Source: Syntrophomonadaceae bacterium
GTDB lineage: Bacteria; Bacillota; Syntrophomonadia; Syntrophomonadales; DTU052
DNA length: 64,000 nucleotides
Assembly: GCA_012729505.1 (NCBI GenBank)
Contig: JAAYDA010000048.1
Coordinates: 1 to 64,000, forward strand
Direction: 5' to 3'
The position numbers and the translations under genes were made by a program. The notes below the pieces were generated by a model. It ran no database searches, had not been told where the DNA came from, and saw only the letters and a program-made list of their open reading frames with translations. Below are positions 34,238 through 51,836 of this stretch, piece by piece. How positions within the stretch are numbered: position 1 is the stretch's first letter; each line of letters begins with the position of its first letter.

Positions 34238-37200
34238 CTACCCAAACAGGCTTATCTGATCGGTGGGGGGAAGATCCTGCAGGCATCCGGTCTTGTCCAG
34301 TATTTCAATCACGGCTTTATTCACCCGTCCTCTGCGCTGGAGATCTTCGACGGAAGTAAATTTGCATCCCTCCCTGGCCTCGGCCAGATTATTAGCTGCA
34401 CTTTCTCCAACCCCTGGAAGGGCGCTAAACGGCAGCAATAAACCATCGTTCATTATTTCAAATTTCGTTGCCCCGGACCGATACAAATCAACCGGGTAAA
34501 AGTTGAAACCGCGAGCCCACATTTCCAAGGCCACCTCCAGCACCGGGATCAGATTTTTGTCTTTGGGTGAGGCCGAATGTCCCTGGTGGTCTATGTCCTC
34601 CAGGCGTTTTCTTACTTCATCATATCCAGAGATGATTGCATCATCGAAATCCTGAGCCCGGATGGAAAAAAAACTGGCATAAAAAGCCAGAGGATAATAA
34701 GCCTTGTAAAAGGCAATACGATAGGCCATCATCACATAAGCTACTGCATGAGCCTTAGGAAACATATATTGAATTTTCATACAGGAATCGATATACCAAT
34801 CGGGAACCTGGTGTTCCCTCATCCGGTTTAGCTGTTCAGAAGTAAGATCGCCGGCCCTGCCTTTCCTGACTTTTTCCATAATTGCAAAGGACTCTTTCTT
34901 CTCAAGGCCCTTTTGAATGAGATATGTCATGATATCGTCACGAATGGCGATAACCTCATTCAATCCGGCAATCTCATTCTTTATTAAATCGTGGGCATTA
35001 TTAACCCAGACATCAGTGCCATGGGACAACCCACTTATTCTAACCAGTTCTGAAAAAGTTTTGGGCCTTGTCACTTCCAGCATCTGACGAACAAACCGGG
35101 TATTAAATTCCGGAATCCCGAAAGTGCCCACCTGAGACCTGATATCCTCCGGCTTCACTCCCAATGAAGCCACATCCGAAAACAACTCCATTGTCCGTGG
35201 CTCATCAAAACTGATTTCTGTGGCTTTGAAGCCGGTCAAATCCTCAAGAGATTTAATCATGGTGGGATCATCATGACCCAGAACATCAATCTTTACCAAT
35301 ACTCCGCTTAATGCCTCATATTCGAAATGGGTTGTGGTGATTTCTGATTTCACATCATCGGCCGGGCGTTGTATAGGAGTGAAATGGTGTACATCCATAT
35401 GATTGGGTACAATCATAAGCCCTCCCGGGTGCTGCCCGGTTGTGCGCTTAATCCCGGTAATCCCTCGTACTAAACGGTCAATCTCGGCCTTTCGGAACTT
35501 TAGCCCGAACTGTTCTTCATATTTTTTAACAAACCCAAAGGCCGTCTTCTCACCAATGGTAGAAATGGTGCCGGCTTTAAATACCCGGTCCTTCCCAAAT
35601 AAGTCTTCCACAAATTGATGGGCCTGGCTCTGATAGTCACCGGAGAAATTTAAATCAATATCGGGAACCTTGTCCCCATCAATACCCAGGAAAGTCTCAA
35701 AGGGGATTTCGAATCCATCCCTGATTAATTCCTGACTGCATTCCGGACAGTTGTCCCGGGGCAGGTCAATCCCGCTGGATACAGATACATCCTCAGGAAA
35801 CCTGGTATACCCACATTTGCATCGGTAATGAGGAGCCAAGGGATTAACTTCGGTTATTCCCGTTAAGAAGGCCACCAATGAGGATCCAACCGAACCTCGT
35901 GAACCCACCAGGTATCCATCACTGTTTGATTTTTTCACCAGTTCATAAGCTATAAGATACAGTTCGCTAAAACCATGCTGAGTAATGGAATTAAGCTCAT
36001 ACGCTATTCGATCCTCGACATACTCCGGCAGCGTTTGCCCATATAGAACATGGGCCCTGTTCCTGGTAAGCTTGGTCAGCCGGTCGGCGGCACCTTCCAT
36101 GACCGGTGCGAAAAATCCTTCAGGTACGGGACGGATATGGCTGCACTGATCCGCAATCAAATTTGAATTCTTTACCACCACTTCCCAAGCCAGCTCATCC
36201 CCGAGATAGTCAAATTCTTCTAACATTTCCCCGGTAGTTCGATAATATAGAGCCGCTTGATTTTCAGCATCTTCGAATCCTTTGCCGGCCTGGATGATAC
36301 GCCGAAAAACATCATCCTGCGGATTCAGAAAGTGAACATCACCAGTGGCCACCACCGGCTTGCGCAGTTCCTTTCCCAGTTTTATCAAGGTCTGATTCAT
36401 TGCCATCAATTCTTCGCGAGACCCCAGAACTCTGTCCCTAATTAAGAACTCATTATTAGTTAAGGGCATAATTTCCAGATAATCATAAAAATCGGCTATC
36501 AGCTTTAACTCTTCCCAATCTGTTTTTTTCAATATACTGCTGAAAACCTCGCCTCTTTCACAGGCGCTGCCTAATATAAGGCCTTCCCGATGCTTAATCA
36601 ACAAGGTTCTTAATATGCGCGGAGTTCGATAATAATTGTTTAAATATGAATCACTAGTTAAAAAATAAAGGTTCCTAAGGCCAATTTCATTAGCAGCCAA
36701 CAGCACTATATGGTGAGAACGATCCTGTTTCTGTTCATCAACCAGATAAGCCTCCACTCCATAAATGATCTTAATTCCATATTTTTTGCCCAGCTTGTCG
36801 GCCTCGGGAAATCCCTGGAGGCAGCCATGATCAGTTATAGCCAGGGCCTGGTGCCCAAATTCTGCAACTTTCGCCATTAAATCGCCGATATTTGTCATTC
36901 CATCCAGGGTGCTCAAATTAGTATGCAAATGGAGTTCAACTCTTTTGACAGACGCTTCATCTCGTCGGTCCGTTATATTAACAGACTCAATGGCGGTTGG
37001 GAAAAAAAGAGCATCTTTTTCATAGGAGTCATAACGGACCTCGCCATAAACCTTAAGATCGTTTCCAACTTCATACAGATCTTCGTCAAACCTTTTTACG
37101 ATTATGGTATCCGAATAATCGGTTACATCGTAGAGTACTATGGAGCGGCCATTTTTTAGCTGCCGGTAATCTTTTCTGACTATCCGGCCTGTAATAAGTG

Positions 37201-37843
37201 CTTGCAGACCTTCCTGCAACTCTATAATAGGAGTAGGCTTAACATCTGGAATAGTCTTGCCTTTAGTTTTGGATTTACCACCTGCAAATTCTTTTCGACC
37301 CGAAAGGCTGCTTTGGCTGGGCACAATATTATTAAGCGGCGGGACAACGGGATTCTCCGATCGTGAAGACAAATCTCCTGTATAAAGGACAGTGACTAAA
37401 AATGATATGCAATAATTTTCAACCATCCAACCTTCTATCCGGCTGCAGAGATCAAGCTGAATAGCCTTTTGCCATTGGGATACCTCATCAAAGAGGATTT
37501 TTAAATGATCATTTTCTACCACGTATTTAGCATCGGCTAAAAAAGGCTCACTTTCATCAACCTGTTTTACGATTTCCAGCCAATTCCCGGTGACTATTTC
37601 TGACAGGCAGGACTCTGCATCTTGGGGGGTAACAACGATTTGCACTTCATTTATTTCCGGAATACGACTCTGAATCATCCGGGCAATTGAATAAAGTCTT
37701 TGGGCAGGCACCAACTGATCCAATATAAGTTCAATCCGCCAGTTTTTTTCCGTCTGCAGCACCGTGATTTCACCAATACAGGCGGATTCCAATCCAGCTT
37801 CTTCCGGGCAATCAAGTCGTTGTAATAACTGGTTTAAGGTCAT
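34238..37843 (-). CDS. polC: DNA polymerase III alpha subunit PolC, lacking the DnaQ-type exonuclease insertion
   Basis: PHP motifs VKRVELHLHTNLSTLDG, ITDHG, YGVEAYLV, SACERGE, ATGDVHFLNP; polymerase GDKVPDIDLNFSGDYQ; RSATKFEIMNDGLLLPFSALPGVG-type C-terminus. Exonuclease absent between GVEAYLVDE and HHIVLLAANEIGL. Start at 37843 with GGAGGGAG RBS (ORF track start 37870). Confidence 0.95.
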   Translation of the reverse strand: MTLNQLLQRLDCPEEAGLESACIGEITVLQTEKNWRIELILDQLVPAQRLYSIARMIQSRIPEINEVQIVVTPQDAESCLSEIVTGNWLEIVKQVDESEPFLADAKYVVENDHLKILFDEVSQWQKAIQLDLCSRIEGWMVENYCISFLVTVLYTGDLSSRSENPVVPPLNNIVPSQSSLSGRKEFAGGKSKTKGKTIPDVKPTPIIELQEGLQALITGRIVRKDYRQLKNGRSIVLYDVTDYSDTIIVKRFDEDLYEVGNDLKVYGEVRYDSYEKDALFFPTAIESVNITDRRDEASVKRVELHLHTNLSTLDGMTNIGDLMAKVAEFGHQALAITDHGCLQGFPEADKLGKKYGIKIIYGVEAYLVDEQKQDRSHHIVLLAANEIGLRNLYFLTSDSYLNNYYRTPRILRTLLIKHREGLILGSACERGEVFSSILKKTDWEELKLIADFYDYLEIMPLTNNEFLIRDRVLGSREELMAMNQTLIKLGKELRKPVVATGDVHFLNPQDDVFRRIIQAGKGFEDAENQAALYYRTTGEMLEEFDYLGDELAWEVVVKNSNLIADQCSHIRPVPEGFFAPVMEGAADRLTKLTRNRAHVLYGQTLPEYVEDRIAYELNSITQHGFSELYLIAYELVKKSNSDGYLVGSRGSVGSSLVAFLTGITEVNPLAPHYRCKCGYTRFPEDVSVSSGIDLPRDNCPECSQELIRDGFEIPFETFLGIDGDKVPDIDLNFSGDYQSQAHQFVEDLFGKDRVFKAGTISTIGEKTAFGFVKKYEEQFGLKFRKAEIDRLVRGITGIKRTTGQHPGGLMIVPNHMDVHHFTPIQRPADDVKSEITTTHFEYEALSGVLVKIDVLGHDDPTMIKSLEDLTGFKATEISFDEPRTMELFSDVASLGVKPEDIRSQVGTFGIPEFNTRFVRQMLEVTRPKTFSELVRISGLSHGTDVWVNNAHDLIKNEIAGLNEVIAIRDDIMTYLIQKGLEKKESFAIMEKVRKGRAGDLTSEQLNRMREHQVPDWYIDSCMKIQYMFPKAHAVAYVMMAYRIAFYKAYYPLAFYASFFSIRAQDFDDAIISGYDEVRKRLEDIDHQGHSASPKDKNLIPVLEVALEMWARGFNFYPVDLYRSGATKFEIMNDGLLLPFSALPGVGESAANNLAEAREGCKFTSVEDLQRRGRVNKAVIEILDKTGCLQDLPPTDQISLFG

Positions 37844-37872
37844 AATTCTCCCTCCAAAGCTGTCGGCCATAA

Positions 37873-50411: not shown

Positions 50412-51836
50412 TCACATACGTAAAGGCTCTATTTTTACTTCCCCATCTTTGAGAGTAAGCATCGCATACTGAATTGGATCATTAACATTCAGGAATGACC
50501 GGCCTATGGAAATTTGAACTCCGGGATAAATAACATCCATTATTTTGATACGGCCCCTCTGCATACGATTCAATTCTTCTTCCAGCTCTAACTTTCGTTG
50601 CTGCAGTTTTTCCAGTTCCGCGTTAAGCTCCTTGTAATCCCCGAGCAAACCGGCAAGTACAACCTTCTTTTTATCAGAAATTCGATCTGGCGAAATACCG
50701 CTTTTCTGGTATGATTGCAAATACTGAGCAATACTGTCGAAGGCTTTCTTTTTTTCTGCAAAAATATGATTTAATTCTTTTTGTTCTTCTCGCAGCATTG
50801 GATTCATTCCTACCTCCAGAACGGTGTGAGATGACAGAGGTGAACCAATGACACGAGCACTTATCTCCTCTCCGGCCTGCAATACCCCGCCAACGATAAC
50901 AGCTTTGCGCCCTTCAACCCGAATGGAATTGTTGGCTCTGACATCTGATTGGAGAATGGCCTCGGAAATCTTCACATCATCCCCAGCTTCAATCCGGCAG
51001 TTTTCTGCAAAACGGGCAAATACGCTACCCCCGGCTTTTATCAGGCATTTGTTGCCTCCGGTAATGCCATTCTTTATCAGGATGTTTCCCCTCGCTATAA
51101 CTGTGGCGCCTTCAATTACTCCATTTACTTCTATATCTCCCTCAGCTTTAACCGTAAAACCCGAACTAATGCTGCCCCGGATATTAACGTCACCAACAAA
51201 ATCGATATTACCGGTGGAAAAATCAACACTGCCGGCCACGTTAAGAACCGGGCTAACCGTCAACTTACCTTCAACCATGGCAACATGACCATCAATAGCG
51301 GCATACAAATGGGTCTGCTCCTCGTTGCTTACTGTGTTTTTCCCTTTCGGCAGCAAAAGGTTTTTCCCTGAACGAGGCTTAATAACTTTGCCCAGCACAG
51401 ATACCCCTTCTCTCCCTTCAACCGGAGGAATACGAACCACTAATAAATCACCTTTGGCAACGTTCCTGACCAAATTGAGGTTTCGGAAGTCAACTTTACC
51501 GTCTTCCCCTTCAGCCGGCCTGCCTTTTTCGTCGTCTGACGAATGCGTTTCATACTCCAGCCTGCCGTCAATGCCGTCTTTGGGCAGAGTACCCCGGGCA
51601 ACCAGAACCGGTTTCCCCCAATTTTCATTACGAATCGCTTCGTTGAGACCCTTTTGTTGAATTCCCCCCGACACTTTTGCATCTTTAAGAGCCTGTAAAA
51701 GAACCTGTAATGTAACAGCTTGTCCCTGCTCTTTGGGACCATATACAGTCGCATATGCTTCCATAGCATCATCGGAAACGAATACTTTTACGTATCCGTC
51801 TTGGTCTTGGCCCTTATTCTTAGATCCGGAACTCAT
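50412..51836 (-). CDS. FapA family protein (DUF342)
   Basis: Repetitive beta-helix GSVDFSTGNIDFVGDVNIRGSISSGFTVKAEGDIEVNGVIEGATVIARGNILIKNGITG. Confidence 0.9.
   Translation of the reverse strand: MSSGSKNKGQDQDGYVKVFVSDDAMEAYATVYGPKEQGQAVTLQVLLQALKDAKVSGGIQQKGLNEAIRNENWGKPVLVARGTLPKDGIDGRLEYETHSSDDEKGRPAEGEDGKVDFRNLNLVRNVAKGDLLVVRIPPVEGREGVSVLGKVIKPRSGKNLLLPKGKNTVSNEEQTHLYAAIDGHVAMVEGKLTVSPVLNVAGSVDFSTGNIDFVGDVNIRGSISSGFTVKAEGDIEVNGVIEGATVIARGNILIKNGITGGNKCLIKAGGSVFARFAENCRIEAGDDVKISEAILQSDVRANNSIRVEGRKAVIVGGVLQAGEEISARVIGSPLSSHTVLEVGMNPMLREEQKELNHIFAEKKKAFDSIAQYLQSYQKSGISPDRISDKKKVVLAGLLGDYKELNAELEKLQQRKLELEEELNRMQRGRIKIMDVIYPGVQISIGRSFLNVNDPIQYAMLTLKDGEVKIEPLRM

Follow-up and report, generated by a model that had tools for sequence, protein, structure and literature searches.

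A DnaQ-type 3'-5' exonuclease (Exo) inserted in the PHP domain is the hallmark of most PolCs, and proofreading by the PHP domain itself has reportedly been described in mycobacteria by Rock et al. in 2015. In M. tuberculosis DnaE1, mutation of D23 or D226 abolishes the PHP activity, and in Geobacillus PolC one PHP ligand is changed and there is no PHP exonuclease activity (PMC5636811). A 2026 survey (PMC12926913), which credits most Clostridia with three active proofreaders, scores a PHP domain as active by the nine-ligand signature HHDHEH[C/H]DH of PHP-proofreading C-family polymerases. PolCs that lack Exo were described in 2014 (Timinskas et al., PMC3919608); in the available portion of that survey, they account for 6% of PolCs, occur only in Clostridia and Negativicutes, bar one extra Thermotogae copy, and are not followed up functionally, and the sharing of the fork between clostridial PolC and DnaE1 is called experimentally uncharacterised. 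The caveat of an earlier, sequence-only note on the present locus, that other Exo-less PolCs may be known, was thus right. Open-access full text yielded no biochemistry on any Exo-less PolC and no experiment that asks whether PHP proofreads in such an enzyme.

A PolC with an uninterrupted PHP domain

The window, i.e. the whole 64,000-nucleotide stretch of Syntrophomonadaceae DNA that was analysed, encodes a genuine full-length replicative PolC with the following features.

34238..37843, minus strand: polC coding sequence, 1,201 aa; a further in-frame ATG at 37870 gives 1,210 aa
37850..37855, minus strand: ribosome-binding site GGAGGG, 7 nt upstream of ATG 37843, read from the sequence
37637..37837, minus strand: PolC N-terminal domain I, residues 12-78 (PF14480)
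36971..37216, minus strand: OB-fold region, residues about 219-300; G. kaustophilus PolC aligns here from residue 219 on, and the model shows strands
36176..36943, minus strand: PHP domain, residues about 310-565, uninterrupted and with nine intact metal ligands (PF02811, ligands, model)
36713..36745, minus strand: short loop, residues 376-386, at the site of the DnaQ-type exonuclease (roughly 200 residues in other PolCs)
35654..35662, minus strand: polymerase catalytic DID of PDIDLNFSG, residues 737-739
34244..34258, minus strand: C-terminal sliding-clamp motif QISLF, compared with the consensus QL[S/D]LF in PMC3919608

A mechanical start at 37870 yields an ORF of 1,210 aa (34238-37870, minus strand); ATG 37843 is preferred because GGAGGG lies 7 nt upstream of it, in agreement with the start and the length of about 1,200 aa given in the earlier note. 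The ORF matches TIGR01405 with 1314 bits, and NCBIfam assigns it to PolC by two curated equivalog models, both over the curated cut-off. RNase_T is missing from its Pfam matches, which comprise PolC N-I, PHP, Pol3 alpha, finger and HhH, and the order of domains is that of PolC, with an N-terminal domain, the OB fold before PHP, Pol3, the C-terminal HhH and the clamp motif. The polymerase Asp triad, which is invariant in 151 PolCs, is present. Membership in PolC stands on the polymerase itself, because Exo-less exceptions to the hallmark have already been published. The neighbours of polC are proS, an mgtC-like gene, rimP and nusA. Elsewhere in the window, a 474-aa ORF (50412-51836, minus strand) some 2 kb from a cheA-like gene has no NCBIfam match at E 1e-20.

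The absence of the insert is evident from the spacing between the two halves of the PHP domain. YGVEA and the HHIV histidines are separated by 16 residues in the window PolC and by 213-233 residues in insert-bearing PolCs, and the junction, expected near 36715-36740 from a first reading, is placed at residues 376-386. Translated from DNA, 152 PolCs fall into two sharply separate groups, with a spacing of either 15-32 or 213-233 residues and none intermediate, and the insert, where there is one, hardly varies in length and not at all in position. The alignment with 9QPC, the Enterococcus PolC, is interrupted by the Exo insert, where residues 379/378 of the query abut and 431/632 of the chain are separated by 200. 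All nine PHP ligands, H314, H316, D323, H348, E373, H387, C437, D511 and H513 in the 1,210-aa numbering, conform to the nine-ligand signature, so that the loss of the exonuclease domain and the retention of the PHP ligands and PDIDLNFSG that had been read from the letters are both borne out.

The AlphaFold model of residues 215-1210, computed with 36 Exo-less relatives, has a mean pLDDT of 91 and a pTM of 0.80, and its PHP fold is predicted to be intact in this metal-free form. The best PDB matches are Geobacillus kaustophilus PolC (3F2B, TM 0.94) and Enterococcus faecium PolC (9QPC, TM 0.96), both over the query, followed by M. tuberculosis DnaE1. The predicted fold tolerates the absence of the insert, since the model matches a PolC that was crystallised with Exo removed.

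Distribution and history of the Exo-less state

PolC is found in 38 of the 40 genomes of the window's class. Near-full-length PolC ORFs of the class measure 1,110-1,257 aa and all lack the insert, no RNase_T domain occurs in a PolC-sized ORF among the 40 genomes, and 27 of them have no RNase_T at all. The two genomes with no PolC match (G019 and G037, estimated 98% and 91% complete) are fragmented into 360 and 270 contigs. An assembly or sequencing deletion, which the earlier note had named as one of its refuting conditions, is practically ruled out, because the Exo-less form is found throughout the class, including the single-contig genomes G022, G024 and G039, and polC is a clean ORF with a ribosome-binding site. 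The absence of a DnaQ-type exonuclease in PolC is an old lineage trait that is fixed across the window's class.

Of 398 genomes drawn evenly across the phylum, 282 have PolC. Among the matches listed, 262 of these genomes could be classified, 138 as Exo-less, their PHP domain being uninterrupted, and 124 as Exo-bearing; about 20 of the 282 lie outside this set. Rumen and gut Clostridia and Ruminococcaceae MAGs (L001-L005, L007, L011, L013, L015, L021-L023) are among the named relatives that have an Exo-less PolC. Genome G354 (L090 and C5:42303-43277) carries two Exo-less PolC-type genes with ORFs of 1285 and 1292 aa; multiple matches to the PHP query are also seen in other members of its family, f29. 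The PHP region of one Exo-less PolC frame contains a single in-frame TAA (G251:C120:3335-4282), which may be either a sequencing error or a true break in the gene.

The state of the insert has changed repeatedly. A FastTree phylogeny built from 878 core columns, the junction excluded, requires at least 10 changes; an IQ-TREE phylogeny of 112 rows under a mixture model requires 11, and well-supported branches force at least 6 of these. Grouping the Exo-less PolCs in one clade, as a single loss would have it, is rejected by the AU test (p 5.7e-44, 47 rows), a p-value that is not literal because the rows were picked after the first tree was seen. The constant site and length of the insert and the scaling of Exo divergence with polymerase divergence favour one ancient insertion that was followed by repeated excision, although the root is not fixed and the direction of the changes is inferred. 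A recent re-insertion in the Exo-bearing clade L114-L119, which is nested among Exo-less PolCs, is disfavoured by its normal Exo/Pol distance ratio (2.16 vs 2.03). One parsimony reconstruction gives 6 losses and 4 gains, and gains of Exo by recombination are possible. In family f49, PolCs of either type occur far apart in the PolC tree (L107 and L108 from G246 and G087; L080 and L106 from G123 and G326), which suggests that polC has been exchanged among lineages or that the family is mixed. Class-wide fixation together with repeated origin indicates that the Exo-less state is tolerated or favoured.

The nine PHP ligands are kept in all 94 Exo-less PolCs and in 45 of 57 with the insert. Ten of the 12 departures are the same D-to-N change, in a single clade that includes named Bacillaceae and Paenibacillaceae. 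The 12 appear to represent approximately three events, all on Exo-bearing branches (chance probability about 0.07), and the contrast between the two types is suggestive only. Disjoint pairs of Exo-less PolCs show less relative PHP divergence (p 0.033), but the p-value is 0.21 once lineages with an altered PHP are dropped, which hints weakly at an added constraint on PHP after the loss of Exo. Because the ligands are also intact in most Exo-bearing PolCs, the conservation may instead reflect metal-dependent stability or another activity.

Candidate proofreaders

The genome of the window is rated 100% complete and has no match to RNase_T (DEDDh) or to RNase_H_2. The exonuclease domain of its Pol I is degenerate, with 12 bits against PF01612 and an alignment to Klenow that begins only at residue 444. 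Besides PolC, the genome has just one C-family polymerase, a DnaE that keeps all nine PHP ligands and carries a clamp-like motif, QLSLF; it is called DnaE1 rather than DnaE3 because of this intact PHP site and clamp motif. The ligands are intact in 30 of 31 aligned class DnaE rows, among which this DnaE itself stands twice, and inspection of the true frame of the remaining row (L178) finds it intact. An additional DnaE-like polymerase, about 1,030-1,110 aa long and 41-47% identical to the query, is encoded by many class members (e.g. G039:C1:2180898-2182052), although not by the window's genome.

Three options had been offered at the outset for this polymerase: proofreading through PHP, a DnaQ acting in trans, or reduced fidelity. 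The first is the best supported, as the signature is complete in both PolC and DnaE1. The conserved chemistry and the absence of alternatives among the families searched make it most likely, with a probability of roughly 0.55, that PolC proofreads via its own trinuclear PHP metal site, which would thus be catalytically active and edit the errors of PolC itself. A mispaired 3' end would leave the polymerase site and would then be cut in the PHP barrel of PolC, as in mycobacterial DnaE1. It is very likely that the companion DnaE1 also proofreads via PHP. A wider proposal, which we hold at slightly less than even odds, is that a broad set of Bacillota with PolC and DnaE1, both intact, have dropped the DEDDh proofreader several times with the PHP domain of PolC as the working proofreader, and that some lineages, including that of the window, replicate without any genomic DEDDh exonuclease.

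The main rival is that DnaE1 performs the bulk of synthesis, proofread by its own PHP domain, and that PolC is secondary, so that its proofreading matters less and Exo has been shed repeatedly. This idea is raised for PolC plus DnaE1 systems in the 2014 survey (PMC3919608), and it agrees with the perfect PHP site and the clamp-like motif of DnaE1, with a DnaE1-type match in nearly all class genomes and with the two of 40 in which PolC was not found. However, both of the latter genomes are fragmented and PolC occurs throughout the class, and PolC keeps the polymerase triad, the clamp motif and all PHP ligands, with no exception in 94 sequences; we consider this division of labour a minority possibility, at perhaps one chance in five.

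A PolC that does not proofread at all, in a lineage that depends on mismatch repair and on the selectivity of its polymerases or that puts up with more mutations, is compatible with the sequence: MutS1 is present, and the PHP activity is putative. Nine metal ligands are strictly kept in many lineages that arose independently, and the trait is old and class-wide in genomes of ordinary size, which renders this reduced-fidelity option rather unlikely.

Less probable still is proofreading in trans by an exonuclease that is unrelated to DnaQ or very divergent from it. Among the matches listed, RNase_T proteins other than PolC occur in 101 of the 138 Exo-less genomes, in DinG-like or stand-alone-size ORFs, and such an arrangement is conceivable there; 37 (a hand count that includes the window's genome) have no RNase_T domain. 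An exonuclease moved to a separate gene was sought in the window's genome with RNase_T and RNase_H_2 and was not found, which, with the degenerate Pol I domain, disfavours the DnaQ-in-trans option for this lineage. In the phylum survey as a whole, 85 of 398 genomes lack any RNase_T, many of them beyond the window's class.

Comparison with described systems

Editing by the PHP domain of PolC is hard to test in the usual models, because a DnaQ insert is present in them and the PHP site is often broken. A natural PolC with a perfect PHP site, no insert and no recognisable genomic DEDDh exonuclease isolates this question in one enzyme, and it also bears on how the fork is shared between PolC and DnaE1 in clostridia.

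The window PolC shares its family and fold with canonical PolC, represented by the Geobacillus (3F2B) and Enterococcus (9QPC) enzymes, to which it is 41-49% identical, with a TM of 0.94-0.96 over the query. Canonical PolC carries the Exo insert, which the crystallographers removed in 3F2B, whereas the window PolC has none; conversely, the PHP ligand that is changed in the inactive Geobacillus domain is intact here, with all nine kept. M. tuberculosis DnaE1 (PMC5636811) has the same nine-ligand signature, including the Cys, and its PHP rather than a DnaQ is the editing site, as is proposed for the window PolC; it is a DnaE-type polymerase with about 21% identity to the window PolC model, and the PHP activity is proven there.

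The Exo-less PolCs of the 2014 survey (PMC3919608) share with the window PolC the NTD, OB, PHP, Pol3 and HhH domains, the lack of the Exo insertion and a DnaE1 partner, with which the window's genome likewise pairs its PolC. The kind of enzyme was therefore already known. The new elements are its prevalence, the repeated change of state, the complete retention of the PHP site and a genome with no detectable DEDDh exonuclease. Against the 6% of PolCs given in that survey, about half of the classifiable PolC genomes are Exo-less in the even draw (53% among the matches listed), two figures that are not directly comparable because such a draw favours deep lineages. Beyond the account in PMC3919608, several independent changes are found, together with the absence of a DEDDh exonuclease match in the window's genome, and Exo-less PolCs are commoner and more scattered across the tree than the 2014 report suggested.
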